A stretch of DNA of 64,000 nucleotides from Xanthomonas sacchari (GTDB taxonomy: Bacteria > Pseudomonadota > Gammaproteobacteria > Xanthomonadales > Xanthomonadaceae), in NCBI RefSeq assembly GCF_040529065.1, contig NZ_CP132343.1:3286001-3350000 (forward strand). The letters are read 5' to 3'. A program made the translations under genes and the position numbers. Of this stretch, positions 47,000 to 54,663 are shown piece by piece. The notes below the pieces were generated by a model. It ran no database searches, had not been told where the DNA came from, and saw only the letters and a program-made list of their open reading frames with translations. Numbering within the stretch: the first letter of the stretch is position 1; each line of letters opens with the position of its first letter.

Positions 47000-47049
47000 C
47001 CCCTGCCCTGCGGACCGGCCCTGCGCCGTTCCGCTGTCGCGGCATCCCG

Positions 47050-47076
47050 GGCTCCGTGCACAGCGGAGCCTTTTTT
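47050..47076 (+). terminator. Rho-independent terminator after phoU
   Basis: Stem GGCTCCG / CGGAGCC with a 7-nt loop and six T residues, 50 bp after the phoU stop. It separates the pst operon from the RiPP cassette. Confidence 0.92.
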
Positions 47077-47177
47077 GTCGCCACGCACTGCCGCATGCAA
47101 CGGCGTGCGCCAGCGAGTAGGCTTGGCGCAGCGCCGGCCACCACGGCCGGCGTCCGCCCATCGCCAGGAGCCTGCGC

Positions 47178-47576
47178 ATGTCCAACGCGTCCCGTTCGTC
47201 TTCTGTCCTCGCCGGTGCGGTCCTGCTCGGCGGGATCGGCCTGTCCACCTCCGCCCTGGCCATGACCGACCTCGCCCAGGGCTATGCGCTGGGCGCACAG
47301 GCCGCCGTCCCCCCGACGCAGGACACCGGATCGACCACGCCAGCAACGCCGACGCCTGCGCCGACAGCGCACACCGGGCAGGCCGCCGACCCGGCCAAGG
47401 CCAGCGAAGGTGGCTGCGGCGCCAAGGCCGGCGACGGCAGCTGCGGAGCGCACGCCCCGGCGGCGACGCCGGCCAAGCCCGCGGCGGCCGGCGCCGCCAC
47501 GCCCGCGGCCAAGCACGACGACAAGGCCATGGCCGAAGGCAAGTGCGGCGAGGGCAAGTGCGGTGGCAGCCTCTGA
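47178..47576 (+). CDS. EGKCG-type RiPP precursor (HvfA/bufferin BufA-like)
   Basis: A 132-residue precursor. Residues 1-28 ([20 protein letters not shown]) form a signal or membrane segment, followed by [13 protein letters not shown], a stretch typical of this family. A Pro/Thr/Ala-rich linker leads to a Cys/Gly region. Cysteines are C80 and C89 ([15 protein letters not shown]) and C123 and C128 in a canonical double motif [10 protein letters not shown] at the C-terminus. In characterised HvfA/BufA systems a DUF692 enzyme turns the cysteines of EGKC motifs into oxazolone-thioamide groups that bind copper. AGGAG lies upstream and a TAGGCT -10-like element at 47118. The gene overlaps the DUF692 gene by 14 nt. 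Confidence 0.88.
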
Positions 47577-48423
47577 ACCACCCCGGTACGACGCCCGGCC
47601 GCTGGCCGCGGCCAGTGCCGGCCTCGGACTGCGTCGCGGCCTGCTGCAGGACCTGCTGCAGGCGCCGGCAGATGCGTTCGACTTCCTCGAATGCGCGCCG
47701 GACAACTGGATCGGCGTCGGCGGCCGCCCCGGCGAATTGCTGCAGACGCTGAGCGCGCGCCATCCGCTCAGCTGCCACGGCCTGTCGTTGTCGCTGGGCG
47801 GCGTGGCCGCGCTGGACACCACCCTGCTGCAGCAGACCCGCCAGTTCCTCGACCGGCACCGGGTCGCGTTGTACAGCGAACACCTCAGCTACAGCGCCGA
47901 CGACGGCCAACTCTACGAACTGCTGCCGCTGCCGTTCACCGAGGAGGCGGTGCGCCACGTCGGCGCGCGCATCGCGCAGGTGCAGGACATGCTGGGCCGG
48001 CGCATCGCGGTGGAGAACGTCTCCTACTACGCCGCCCCGGGCCAAGCGATGAGCGAAGCCGCGTTCGTGGCCGCAGTGCTGGACGAGGCCGATTGCGACC
48101 TGCTGCTGGACGTCAACAACGTGCACGTCAACGCCAGCAACCATGGCGACGACGCGCTGGCCTTCCTCGCCGCCATGCCCAGCGCGCGCATCGCCTCCTA
48201 CCACGTCGCCGGCCACCGCGACGATGCCGCCAGCGGGCTGAAGATCGACACCCACGCCGCGCCGGTGGCCGACCCGGTGTGGGACCTACTCGCCGCCGCC
48301 TACCGCCTGCACGGCGTGCGCCCCACCGTGCTCGAGCGCGACGGCCAGTTCCCGCCGCTGCGCGAACTGCTGGACGAGGTGCAGTGCATCCGCGCCGCGC
48401 AGGCGCAGTCGCGCGACGCATGA
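47563..48423 (+). CDS. DUF692 multinuclear non-heme iron oxidase (MNIO; HvfB/BufB-like)
   Basis: A 286-residue TIM-barrel enzyme of the DUF692/MNIO family, which modifies cysteine residues of RiPP precursors using a multinuclear iron centre. Recognisable segments: [97 protein letters not shown] and [21 protein letters not shown]; these carry the His, Asp and Glu residues expected as metal ligands. The start GTG (47563-47565) lies within the precursor gene with GAGGG upstream, indicating translational coupling. The following DUF2063 partner overlaps it by ATGA. Confidence 0.92.
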
Positions 48424-49166
48424 GCGAGACCCTGCGCGCGCAGCAATTCGCCCTGACCCGGCACCTGCGCGATCCGCAGCGCTACCCGGCGCCGGCGGAC
48501 ATCCCACCGCAGCGCCTGGCGTTGTATCGGGCGCTGTTCTTCGACAACCTGGCGCAGTTGCTGAGCGGCCAGTTCCCGGTGCTGCGCGCCACCCTTGGCG
48601 ACGCCGACTGGACGGCGCTGCTGCGCGCGTTCTGCGCCGAGCACCGCGCCCGCACACCGCTGTTCCCGCGCCTGGGCGAGGAGCTGGTGGCGTTCCTGCA
48701 GCAGCGCGCAGCCGATCCGCAGCGTCCCTGGCTGGCCGAACTGGCGCACTACGAAACCGTGGAACTGCAGGTGCAGATCGACGATGCGGCGCTGCCGCCG
48801 CACGATCCGCGCGGCGACCTGCTCGACGGCATCCCGCTGCTGTCGCCGTGGCTGCGGCTGCTGCGCTACCGCTGGCCGGTGCAGCGCATCGGCCCGGCCT
48901 GGCAGCCGGACACGGCCCCGGCGCAGCCGACCTGCCTGCTGGCGCGGCGCGAGCCCGACGGCCAGGTCCGCTTCGCCGAACTGGCGCCGCTGGCCTACGC
49001 CGTGCTGGCGGCGCTGCAGCCGGGCACGCGCAGCGGGCGGGCGCTGCTGGTGGACCTGGCCGCCGCGCACGGCCTTGCGCCGGACGCCCTGCTGCACGAG
49101 GGCGCGGCCCTGCTGGAACGGCTGCGCGCGCAGGGCAGCGTGCTCGGCACGCGCCTGCCGGAGTGA
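48420..49166 (+). CDS. DUF2063 partner protein of MNIO (HvfC/BufC-like)
   Basis: A 248-residue protein whose N-terminal half matches DUF2063: [90 protein letters not shown]. The C-terminal half is less conserved and ends with a helical winged-like region ([53 protein letters not shown]). In known systems it brings the precursor to the MNIO enzyme and is needed for modification. It begins in the ATGA overlap with the DUF692 gene. The cassette contains no DoxX-type fourth gene; RNase T follows. Confidence 0.9.
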
Positions 49167-51420: not shown

Positions 51421-54402
51421 TCAGCCCACGCACACCCGATCGCGCCCCAGCCCCTTGGCGCGGTAAAGCGCCCCGTCGGCGCGCTCCAGCCACTGGCTCG
51501 GCGTCTCGTCCGCGCGCAATGCGACCAGGCCGCCGCTGAAGGTGACGCGCAGCGCCGGGGCCTCGGGCGCCCACTGCAGGCGCGCATGGAACAGGTCGCG
51601 CAGGCGCGTGGCCAGGCGCTCGGCCTCGGCCAGCGGGGTGTCGCCGAGCAGGATCGCGAATTCTTCGCCACCCAGGCGCGCCGGCAGGTCGGTAGTGCGG
51701 CAGGCGCCCAGCAGCAGTTGCCCGACCTCGCGCAGCACCGCGTCGCCGGTGGCATGCGAGTAACCGTCGTTGATCTGCTTGAAGCGGTCGATGTCCATCA
51801 CCAGCAGGCACAGCGGCGCGCCGCTGTGCTGCGCACGCTGCATGCTGCGCTCCAGCACCTCGTCGAAGTGCCGCCGGTTCGGCAAGCCGGTCAATGCGTC
51901 CTCGTGCGCCAAGCGCTCGAACGCGGTGGCCTGGCGCTGCAGTTCCGCCAGCAACTGGCTCTTTTCGGCATCGGCCTGCAGTAGGCGTTCGGTCTGCAGC
52001 CGCAGCGCGCTGGTGCGCCGCTCCACCAGCCGCTCCAGGCGCAGCGCGCGCCGCTTGTAGCGCGCGATCAGGTAGCGGTACAGCAGCACCAACGCCAGCA
52101 CCAGCACCGCCACGGCCGCCGCATGCACGCTGTGCCGCTGCCACCACAGTGGCGCCACGCTGAAGCGCCACACGGCCTCGCGGGTGCTCCAGGCGCCATC
52201 CGGATGCGCCGCGGCCACGTGCAGGGTGTAGTCGCCCGGCGGCAGGCCGATGAACTCCACGCTGCGCTGGTTGCCGCGGTCGATCCACCCGCTGTCCAGG
52301 CCGTCGAGGCGAGTGCGGTAGCGGATGCGCTCGGGCAGCAGATAGCTCAGGCCAACGTAAGACACGCTGATGCGCTTGGCGCCAGGAAGTTCCGTCCTGG
52401 TCTGCCACGGGAAGGGCTGGCCGTCCAACAACACGCTCTCGATCGCTGCCGGCGGCGGCAGGCGATCGCGAAAGCGCGCCAGGCGCCGCGGGTCGACCAT
52501 GCTGACGCCGCCGGCGGTGACCAGCCACACCGTGCCGTCGTGGCGCAGGATCATCGACGGCCCGGAGCTGCCGTTGCCCTGCGCGTTGGACATGCCGTCG
52601 ATCTCGTCGTAGCGGCTCACCTGCAGCCGCGGCTGGCGGCCGTCGGCGACCGCGTCCAGCGCCGCCGCGGTGGTGCGCAGCACGCCGCGGTTGCTGCTGA
52701 TCCAGACATTGCCGAGGCGGTCGCGGACCAGTTGGAAGACCGTATCCACCGGCATGCCCTGCTCCAGTCCCACCCGTGCCAGTTGACCGTCGCGGTCGCG
52801 GTGCAGGCCGCGGTCGGTGGAGATCCACATGTCGCGGCCCAAGGCCTGGAACCCGAACACGGTACGCGCGCCGCCCAGCGGCTCCAACGCCAGCGTCCGT
52901 ACCCGGCCGTCGCGCAGCACCGCCGCGCCTTCCACCGAACCGATCCACAGCGCGCCGTCGACACTGGCCAGCGCGGTGATCAGGCCGTGCGGCAGGCCGG
53001 GCACGTCCGGCACCGAGAGCCGGTCACCATCGATGCGCATCACCCCGCTGCGGGTGCCGATCCAGACCGTGCCGGCGGCATCGACGCTGAGCGCACGCAC
53101 CTGCCCGCTGGGCAAGCCCTCGCGCGTCCCGTAGTGGCGCACCACCCGACCATCGCGCAGGCGGAACACGCCATCGGCATAGGTACCCATCCACAGGTCG
53201 CCGTCGCTGCCGCGCGCCAGGCTCAGCACCGAGGGCGCATCGTGCAGCGCGACCGGGGCGATGCGGCCTTCCGGCGCCATCCGGTCCAGCCCGGCGGCGC
53301 TGCCGATCCAAAGCGCGCCGTCCGGTGTCTCCAGCAGCGCGCGTACGTAGTCGCCGCTGAGGCCATCGCGGCGGGTATAGCCGGCGAACAAGGTCTCGCG
53401 CAGGCGGAACAGGCCGCCGTTGGCGCCGATCCAGATGCTGCCCTCGGCATCCTGCAGCAGGCTGACGATGCGCCCGTTGGGCAGCACGTCGCCCGGCAGC
53501 ATGCGCTCGATGCCATGCGTACTGATCCGCAGCAGCCCCTGGTTCTCGGTCCCGAGCCAGATCGCGCCATCGCGATCGCGCAGCATCGAGGTGAAATGGC
53601 CATAGCCCGGCAAGTGCTGCACCAGCACCGCGCGCTCGCCCTGCACCCGGTAAAGGTTCTCTCCCGCCACCAGCCACAGCGAGCCGTCCGGTGCCCGATA
53701 CGGCCAGGCCAGCCCGGGTGGCAGGCCGAACGCCGCCGGCGCGCGGCGCAGCACGCCTTGCGGGTCGCGATACAGCAAGCCATCGAGACTACCGATCCAG
53801 ATCCGCCCCTGGTCGTCTGCGGCCAGGTGCGGGAAGCTCGCCGCCAACGGCAGGTCACGCGGCGCCGGCTGGTAATCGAAACGGCCGTCGGGCCACAGGC
53901 AGCCCAGGCCGTTGCCTTCGAACAGCAGCCACATGCGGCCGTCGCGGTCCTGGGTCATCGCGTGGATCAGCGCGTGCGGCCAGCCCGGCGGCTGTCGCCA
54001 GAACCGCCAGTGGCCGGCGGGATCGTGGCGGCCGAGGTTGCCGCGCGAATCGCTGAGCCACAGTGCGCCGGCGCGGTCCACGTACAGCGAGCCGACCCCG
54101 TTGTCGGGCAGGCCCGGGCGGGTGCTGCGGTCGATGACGGTGAAGTCCAGGCCGTTGTAGCGCACCAGTCCTTCCCAGGTGGCGAACCACAGGCGGCCAT
54201 CCGGGGTCTGCGCCAGATCGCGAAGGGAGTTGTGCGGCAGGCCGTTGCGCGAGGTCCAGGAATCGACGGCGTAATCGCGCAGCGGGGGCACGCCGTTCGC
54301 AGCGGCGTCGGCGTCGGCGGCAACGGCGCGCCAGGCCGCGCCCAGCGCCAGCAGCAGGACCAGCAGCACCAGACACGCGCGCCCGCGGCCGCATGCGAGC
54401 AC
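51421..54402 (-). CDS. Two-component-propeller/Y_Y_Y sensor diguanylate cyclase
   Basis: A 993-residue membrane protein. After an N-terminal membrane or signal segment (CLVLLVLLLALGAAWRAVA) comes a periplasmic beta-propeller of about 14 blades, each marked by RDGxIWLGTxxGLxR-type repeats (for instance DRDGAIWLGTENQGLLRI), then a Y_Y_Y domain (RYRTRLDGLDSGWIDRGNQRSVEFIGLPPGDYTLHV), a transmembrane helix (AAAVAVLVLALVLLYRYLIA), a coiled coil and a GGDEF domain. The active site GGEEF is at 911-915 and a product-inhibition site RTTD lies five residues before it. The enzyme should make c-di-GMP. GTG at 54402 is chosen because of a strong AGGGGGAGGGGGGA; a GTG at 54432 is possible. Confidence 0.93.
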   Translation of the reverse strand: MLACGRGRACLVLLVLLLALGAAWRAVAADADAAANGVPPLRDYAVDSWTSRNGLPHNSLRDLAQTPDGRLWFATWEGLVRYNGLDFTVIDRSTRPGLPDNGVGSLYVDRAGALWLSDSRGNLGRHDPAGHWRFWRQPPGWPHALIHAMTQDRDGRMWLLFEGNGLGCLWPDGRFDYQPAPRDLPLAASFPHLAADDQGRIWIGSLDGLLYRDPQGVLRRAPAAFGLPPGLAWPYRAPDGSLWLVAGENLYRVQGERAVLVQHLPGYGHFTSMLRDRDGAIWLGTENQGLLRISTHGIERMLPGDVLPNGRIVSLLQDAEGSIWIGANGGLFRLRETLFAGYTRRDGLSGDYVRALLETPDGALWIGSAAGLDRMAPEGRIAPVALHDAPSVLSLARGSDGDLWMGTYADGVFRLRDGRVVRHYGTREGLPSGQVRALSVDAAGTVWIGTRSGVMRIDGDRLSVPDVPGLPHGLITALASVDGALWIGSVEGAAVLRDGRVRTLALEPLGGARTVFGFQALGRDMWISTDRGLHRDRDGQLARVGLEQGMPVDTVFQLVRDRLGNVWISSNRGVLRTTAAALDAVADGRQPRLQVSRYDEIDGMSNAQGNGSSGPSMILRHDGTVWLVTAGGVSMVDPRRLARFRDRLPPPAAIESVLLDGQPFPWQTRTELPGAKRISVSYVGLSYLLPERIRYRTRLDGLDSGWIDRGNQRSVEFIGLPPGDYTLHVAAAHPDGAWSTREAVWRFSVAPLWWQRHSVHAAAVAVLVLALVLLYRYLIARYKRRALRLERLVERRTSALRLQTERLLQADAEKSQLLAELQRQATAFERLAHEDALTGLPNRRHFDEVLERSMQRAQHSGAPLCLLVMDIDRFKQINDGYSHATGDAVLREVGQLLLGACRTTDLPARLGGEEFAILLGDTPLAEAERLATRLRDLFHARLQWAPEAPALRVTFSGGLVALRADETPSQWLERADGALYRAKGLGRDRVCVG

Positions 54403-54663
54403 CGCGTCCCCCCTCCCCCTGGCAACGTTCACTGTCCCGACCCGATCCGACGCAGACGGGGCGCGACAGGACCCTGGCGCGGGGAGCCAGCGTCAAGGGG
54501 ACGGGGGCGACGCAGACTCATTACCGGAACAGAACACGGGACGAGCGCCCATGGTAGGCAAAAACAAGGCGCTGCGGGTGCAGGCGTTAGCAGGTCACCG
54601 AAAAAGAACGCGTGAAGATTGCGCGACGGTTAAGCCGGGCTGGCCCGTGCAAGCGCAGCACCT

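Follow-up and report, generated by a model that had tools for sequence, protein, structure and literature searches.

The three-gene cassette and its family membership

The window that we analysed is a stretch of 64,000 nucleotides from Xanthomonas sacchari (contig NZ_CP132343.1, positions 3,286,001 to 3,350,000). At 47178..49166 of the window, between phoU upstream and rnt (RNase T) downstream, the latter following after 41 nt, three open reading frames overlap head to tail and encode a precursor peptide, a DUF692-type multinuclear iron oxidase (MNIO) and a DUF2063 partner protein (Table 1). A preliminary description had recognised a signal-bearing precursor and three overlapping genes of this composition, and open reading frames, Pfam and NCBIfam all agree on the genes. 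The MNIO start, GTG at 47563, lies 14 nt inside the precursor gene, with no in-frame ATG, GTG or TTG between it and the conserved Arg-Arg of the enzyme, and the MNIO and partner genes overlap by 4 nt (ATGA at 48420, the partner start lying within the MNIO stop); these overlaps suggest translational coupling. The GAG GGC AAG codons of the second precursor repeat hold GAGGG 8 nt before the GTG, so that the second EGKCG repeat may also provide a Shine-Dalgarno-like site for the MNIO.

Table 1. Features of the cassette and its upstream region (window coordinates)
Feature	Position	Strand	Details and evidence
Intrinsic terminator after phoU	47049..47071	+	9-bp stem followed by TTTTT; one terminator found, against a mean of 0.4 (sd 0.7) in shuffled sequence
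Upstream region, candidate promoter/operator	47080..47177	+	Loosely shared block across 17 aligned genus loci
HvfA-like precursor, 132 aa	47178..47576	+	ATG 47178 to TGA 47576; ORF, NCBIfam, alignment
Upstream module of precursor, codons 75-92 (18 residues)	47400..47453	+	Alignment; pN/pS 0.07
C-terminal core of precursor, codons 120-130 (11 residues)	47535..47567	+	Alignment, pN/pS
HvfB-type MNIO (PF05114), 286 aa	47563..48423	+	GTG start; Pfam, NCBIfam, 3BWW alignment
HvfC-type partner, DUF2063 + NGO1945_C, 248 aa	48420..49166	+	Pfam, NCBIfam

Pfam places PF05114 on the MNIO (E 1.2e-98) and both DUF2063 (PF09836, E 1.4e-23) and NGO1945_C (PF22106, E 1.6e-23) on the partner, although the partner has no PDB match at E 0.001. 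Among NCBIfam models, the MNIO scores above the cut-off of the HvfB family NF003818 (391 bits against 360), the partner above that of HvfC NF050145 (263.8 against 142) and the precursor tail above that of KCGExKCG_twice NF050137 (26.3 against 19.5). The MNIO stays below the cut-off of the BufB equivalog NF050167 (269.2 against 310) and the precursor below that of the HvfA equivalog NF050188 (21.7 against 95); the precursor has no Pfam match at E 1, and so no DUF2282. The earlier label of an HvfABC/bufferin-like cassette thus holds for the HvfB and HvfC families but not for a bufferin in the strict sense, which the absent DUF2282 and the BufB score rule out. In the whole genome of the window, the MNIO is the sole MNIO match at E 0.001, and the KCGExKCG_twice model matches only once.

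The cassette is like HvfABC (oxazolin) of Haemophilus influenzae in its gene order, apparent Sec signal and 11-residue C-terminal motif. However, HvfA carries three 11-residue units and is accompanied by the DoxX-like HvfX (PMC13419390), whereas the window precursor has a single such unit, with a divergent module upstream of it, and PF07681 (DoxX) has no match in the window genome, the same model finding matches in 7 of 14 genomes as a control. For this family, then, the claim that a DoxX-like fourth gene is lacking was correct. The fontiphorin cassette FonABC is a minimal three-gene cassette as here, and with FonABC and gonophorin (captophorins) the window cassette shares a conserved Arg-Arg and catalytic Asp and an EGKCG substrate, but FonA has seven modified sites, and FonB has Phe250 where the window enzyme has Gly261. 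With the bufferins Buf1 and Buf2, it shares an MNIO with a DUF2063 partner and a Cys peptide that is probably exported by Sec; these bufferins are of the Cys-Lys type, in contrast to the EGKCG type found here. Judged by its sequence, membership of the cassette in the EGKCG/HvfABC kind is well supported; what sets this lineage apart is its trimmed precursor and an altered enzyme contact. In the literature on MNIO and EGKC peptides, mostly outside subscription journals, titles and the beginnings of abstracts name no Xanthomonas cassette.

Chromosomal setting and distribution

We compared the setting of the cassette among non-redundant loci of the genus and of the rest of the family, omitting 12 loci with too little flank. 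Among the 13 genus loci, 11 have phoU upstream and all have rnt downstream; among the 79 others in the family, the corresponding numbers are 61 and 66. One locus (L019) is scored as a phoU miss purely because of its short flank; L067, from the same stretch with a longer flank, has phoU. Among the 18 other family loci that lack phoU, 10 belong to one Lysobacter-type clade (L088, L094, L099, L101, L103, L108, L109, L113, L123 and L132) and 5 to an Arenimonas group in the tree (L090, L127, L128, L130 and L131). By these counts, the peptide pathway occupies one chromosomal place in most of the family loci examined.

In the window, phoU ends in an intrinsic terminator ahead of the cassette, which is therefore probably transcribed from a start of its own. 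The block shared upstream of the precursor gene consists of a GCATGC-like element followed by one resembling GGTA[GC]GCTTGGC, incomplete in some rows (L008, L032, L033), and is a candidate promoter; a sigma-70 promoter scan found none. Among 10 additional ORFs of the window, not all of which may be genes, Pfam detected no metal regulator, and with PhoU and RNase T as its neighbours, the cassette has no adjacent metal regulator, as had been stated. Elsewhere in the window (51421-54432, minus strand) lies a gene for a protein that joins a Reg_prop/Y_Y_Y propeller sensor to a GGDEF diguanylate cyclase.

An HvfB-type gene (at least 78% identity) is present in 18 of 20 genus genomes, and an MNIO match of any kind in 154 of 198 family genomes. 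The two exceptions in the genus, G085 and G206, have kept phoU and rnt with no precursor, MNIO or partner match between them, and a third genome, G208 (L040), has a precursor frame that ends after 83 codons, none of them for Cys. Thus, the cassette is dispensable. In G206 (L162) and G085 (L163), about 0.89 and 0.76 kb, respectively, without blastn similarity to the window take its place. By MNIO identity, Xanthomonas sp. F10 and NCPPB 1128 (95%) come closest among the named records, the window's own species possibly having been left out, followed by Xanthomonas sp. GPE 39 (87%), X. albilineans (86%) and X. bonasiae (85%).

The precursor has an old upstream Cys site and a clade-specific addition

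The precursor begins with a hydrophobic run ending SALA before M, a Sec-type signal at about residues 1-28 as read by eye, and continues with a conserved stretch of 13 residues (29-41) that contains the only two residues, Gly35-Tyr36, fully invariant across 55 family precursors. Its four Cys lie at positions 80, 89, 123 and 128, with C123 and C128 inside a 10-residue motif and spaced 5 residues apart, compared to 9 for C80 and C89. We aligned the 17 intact precursors of the genus, of which L001 is the window itself. Among all the loci of genus and family, no precursor was recovered from L040 (broken), from L083 and L091 (little upstream DNA) or from L100. Both C123 and C128 are kept in 17 of 17. 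The C89 site, as EG[KST]CGAH or DG[SG]CGAH, is present in 15 of 17, having been lost in L008 and L039, and C80 is confined to a clade of 7 genomes that includes the window, all 7 of which retain both upstream Cys. Thus, the upstream pair is made up of one old site and one addition. The preliminary description was right about two modules, but its view of the upstream one as a degenerate pair gives way, with C89 found genus-wide and C80 added; a lack of conservation of this module in homologues, which it had named as refuting its reading, is not seen in the window clade, where both Cys persist, and in the genus at large one upstream Cys persists in 15 of 17 precursors. Gly follows 55 of the 56 Cys in the genus precursors. 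An AlphaFold2 model built from the 17 genus rows had a mean pLDDT of 49.9 and a pTM of 0.10 and was without secondary structure, and with such scores we claim no fold for the precursor.

We examined constraint on the upstream module by pN/pS. Within the window clade (7 genomes), the ratio is 0.07 for the module, compared to 0.54 and 0.36 for the linkers and 0.37 for the signal, and it is 0 both for residues 29-43 at the mature N-terminus and for the C-terminal core. A fewest-changes count in this clade gave 2 amino-acid and 8 silent changes in the module, compared to 36 and 27 in the linkers (Fisher P = 0.041), in a test that is small and has region borders set by the analyst. These values are suggestive, not strong, evidence that the upstream module may be constrained in the window clade. 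Genus-wide, the ratio for the module is 0.90, an alignment-dependent value, which points to a module free to vary outside the window clade.

EF-hands are absent from the genus precursors

The closest family relatives are precursors of the Buf_EGKCG/EF-hand_5 type, which pair EGKC modules with EF-hands (Antoine et al. 2025, PMC12452194). Pfam found EF-hand_5 in 41 of 55 family precursors, a set in which 4 are genus rows, and hence in 41 of the 51 others, whereas none of the 17 genus precursors has an EF-hand at E 0.1. In the precursors described in PMC12452194 the EF-hands are C-terminal to one short module, whereas many of the relatives here have them in the middle, flanked by an EGKC module upstream and by EGKCG repeats at the C-terminus; one Lysobacter clade has them C-terminally (e.g., L094, L099). 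EF-hand-like motifs do occur in the group placed next to the genus by a quick MNIO tree (L021, L027, L107, L098 and L111; SH-aLRT 91, not starred), which makes a loss on the genus stem the simplest interpretation. We rejected the idea that this loss is unique in the family: a regular-expression label for EF-hands (71 with, 29 without among 100 precursors) needs 6 changes on the tree, and absence recurs elsewhere in the family.

A conserved Phe of the MNIO is replaced throughout the genus

The closest solved structure for the MNIO is 3BWW (E 2.4e-61), and in this alignment the enzyme reads ERDG against ERDF in 3BWW. In FonB, Arg15, Arg16, Asp249 and Phe250 are proposed as substrate-contacting or catalytic residues from an AlphaFold model and mutants (PMC12668002); they correspond to R24, R25, D260 and G261 of the window enzyme by motif and by way of 3BWW rather than by direct alignment. 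We compared non-redundant enzyme rows, 18 from the genus (L040 included), which form one clade in the MNIO tree (SH-aLRT 100), and 86 from the rest of the family. R24/R25 and D260 are present in 18 of 18 genus enzymes. At position 261, all 18 have replaced the Phe (Gly in 10, Ser in 7, Ala in 1), compared to Phe in 84 of the 86 other family rows, where the remaining two are misread (L060, a faulty extraction of 3 residues that was left out of the tree, and L129, which reads out of frame). Outside the family, Phe is found in 26 of the 27 best-scoring loci of the class, and Thr in L136.

A scan without a preselected site gave 119 columns that are at least 95% conserved in the 86 non-genus rows (gaps set aside). 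In two of these the conserved residue falls below 20% in the genus: at 119, Glu takes the place of Asp, and at 261, Gly, Ser or Ala that of Phe. Position 261 is thus the one radical genus-wide change among the 119 conserved columns, and it occurs in a lineage with a changed substrate. The residue singled out in the literature on the basis of a model and then probed with mutants is the one that changed across the genus, which makes this lineage a natural experiment on MNIO substrate choice.

In the sequence logo given for FonB-like Lys-Cys MNIOs (PMC12668002), the Arg-Arg and the Asp have their counterparts in the window enzyme, and the Phe position is occupied by Gly261. On this comparison, the missing Phe weakens a match to FonB-type selectivity and leaves untouched the view that the enzymes work alike. 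FonB with F250A or F250D is still active, and F250D fully processed a peptide with Phe before Cys that the wild type did not (PMC12668002). By analogy with these mutants, the natural change most likely loosens the choice of the residue beside Cys rather than breaking the enzyme, which would fit the Gly and Ser that precede the Cys of the upstream module. Residues other than Lys precede 16% of the 483 Cys in 83 other precursors, compared to 34% of the 56 in the 17 genus precursors, where 14 of the 19 such sites come from the 7 near-identical members of the window clade. We ruled out a strict coupling between Phe loss and non-Lys sites, since relatives with the Phe also carry EGSCG, EGQCG and EGGCG; the Phe, where kept, does not forbid such residues.

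Proposed function and alternative readings

We consider it probable (about 0.75) that this HvfABC-type RiPP cassette of a Xanthomonas-type lineage has been inherited mostly vertically and that its product is modified, exported and binds copper. The sequences themselves show the order and overlaps of the genes, their domains and active-site residues, and their conservation, synteny and constraint. For the chemistry, export and copper binding, we reason from characterised relatives. The three genes would be translated as a coupled unit, and the DUF2063 partner, an RRE domain, would hold the precursor, with the signal peptide and the conserved N-terminal stretch as the recognition region. Such a region would agree with the statement in PMC13419390 that its data fit a Sec signal acting as a leader, as in bufferins. 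In the cytoplasm, the iron oxidase with its partner would convert the two Cys of the C-terminal EGKCG pair to 5-thiooxazoles, and C80 and C89 would most probably be converted as well. The modified peptide would then be exported by Sec and bind Cu(I) in the periplasm through its 5-thiooxazoles. Thus, the product is most likely a copper-binding 5-thiooxazole peptide of the oxazolin/captophorin kind, by analogy with the characterised EGKCG products, which bind copper (PMC12668002; PMC13419390). The oxazolone-thioamide chemistry named in the preliminary description must be replaced, because the heterocycle first assigned that structure was later revised to 5-thiooxazole (PMC12668002; PMC13419390).

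How far modification extends along the precursor is where the readings part. We regard modification of C80 and C89 as likely. The alternative is that only the 10-residue C-terminal pair is modified, with C80 and C89 remaining plain thiols that serve as Cu(I) ligands, form a disulfide or are remnants of ancestral repeats; we think this possible but rather unlikely. In its favour, two genus precursors of 17 lost the upstream Cys, and none of the 483 Cys contexts outside the genus begins its motif with Asp. It also agrees with the report that FonBC left a single-repeat substrate unmodified (PMC12668002), and the spacing of 9 rather than 5 residues between C80 and C89 likewise speaks against their modification. 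Ala, Arg or Thr ahead of Cys is accepted by FonBC, and the G and S of the upstream module are outside these variants (PMC12668002). However, the same study reports that DGKCG was fully modified and that a small residue after Cys is preferred; an Asp-led motif is accepted, as are some non-Lys variants, and EGSCG is the second commonest motif in the relatives (37 of 483). The pN/pS of 0.07 for the module among the window-clade members also argues against modification of the C-terminal pair alone. That the upstream module has been decaying since the EF-hands were lost and serves no purpose today, we consider very improbable: the genus-wide ratio, the missing Cys in L008 and L039, and a cassette absent in 2 and broken in its precursor in 1 of 20 genus genomes are what decay would leave, but the excess of silent changes over that in the linkers and the retention of both Cys in 7 of 7 window-clade precursors are not.

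A role other than copper buffering (other soft metals, redox, envelope stress), perhaps with the expression linked to phosphate that a place between phoU and rnt hints at, is improbable in our estimation. It draws on phoU preceding the cassette in 72 of the 92 sufficiently flanked loci and on the Microbulbifer study, whose authors were hesitant to assign a copper-protective role (PMC12538549), so that copper protection is disputed there; against it, the terminator parts phoU from the cassette in the window, and characterised EGKCG products bind copper. Within our preferred reading of a copper-binding 5-thiooxazole peptide, we put forward one further idea as tentative and, on balance, doubtful: the MNIO of the genus, having lost the Phe contact in a lineage where the precursors also lost their EF-hands, may have become a looser Cys oxidase, and the window clade may then have gained a modified, non-Lys pair of Cys spaced by 9. 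If so, the product would be a compact copper site with four rings, unlike the repeat-type captophorins of the papers cited here. With 2 to 4 Cys each, the products of the genus precursors would be easy to map.

Further MNIO genes and annotation of relatives

In five genus genomes (G199, G201, G205, G206 and G207) there is an additional pair of MNIO genes with 41-46% identity, separated by about 2.5 kb, which the window genome lacks. In each such pair (L041-L046, L049-L052), one gene is preceded by a precursor with CKGQ motifs that looks Buf2-like by eye. In G202, a distant MNIO (L047; 36%) lies beside an ORF with several GGCG-like Cys motifs, possibly a larger substrate. Among the 55 family precursors, 41 match the NCBIfam model for XopAW and 39 that for lanmodulin at E <=0.01, judged by E value only. 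These matches presumably arise through the EF-hands, and automatic annotation with these models could misname the precursors that carry them.
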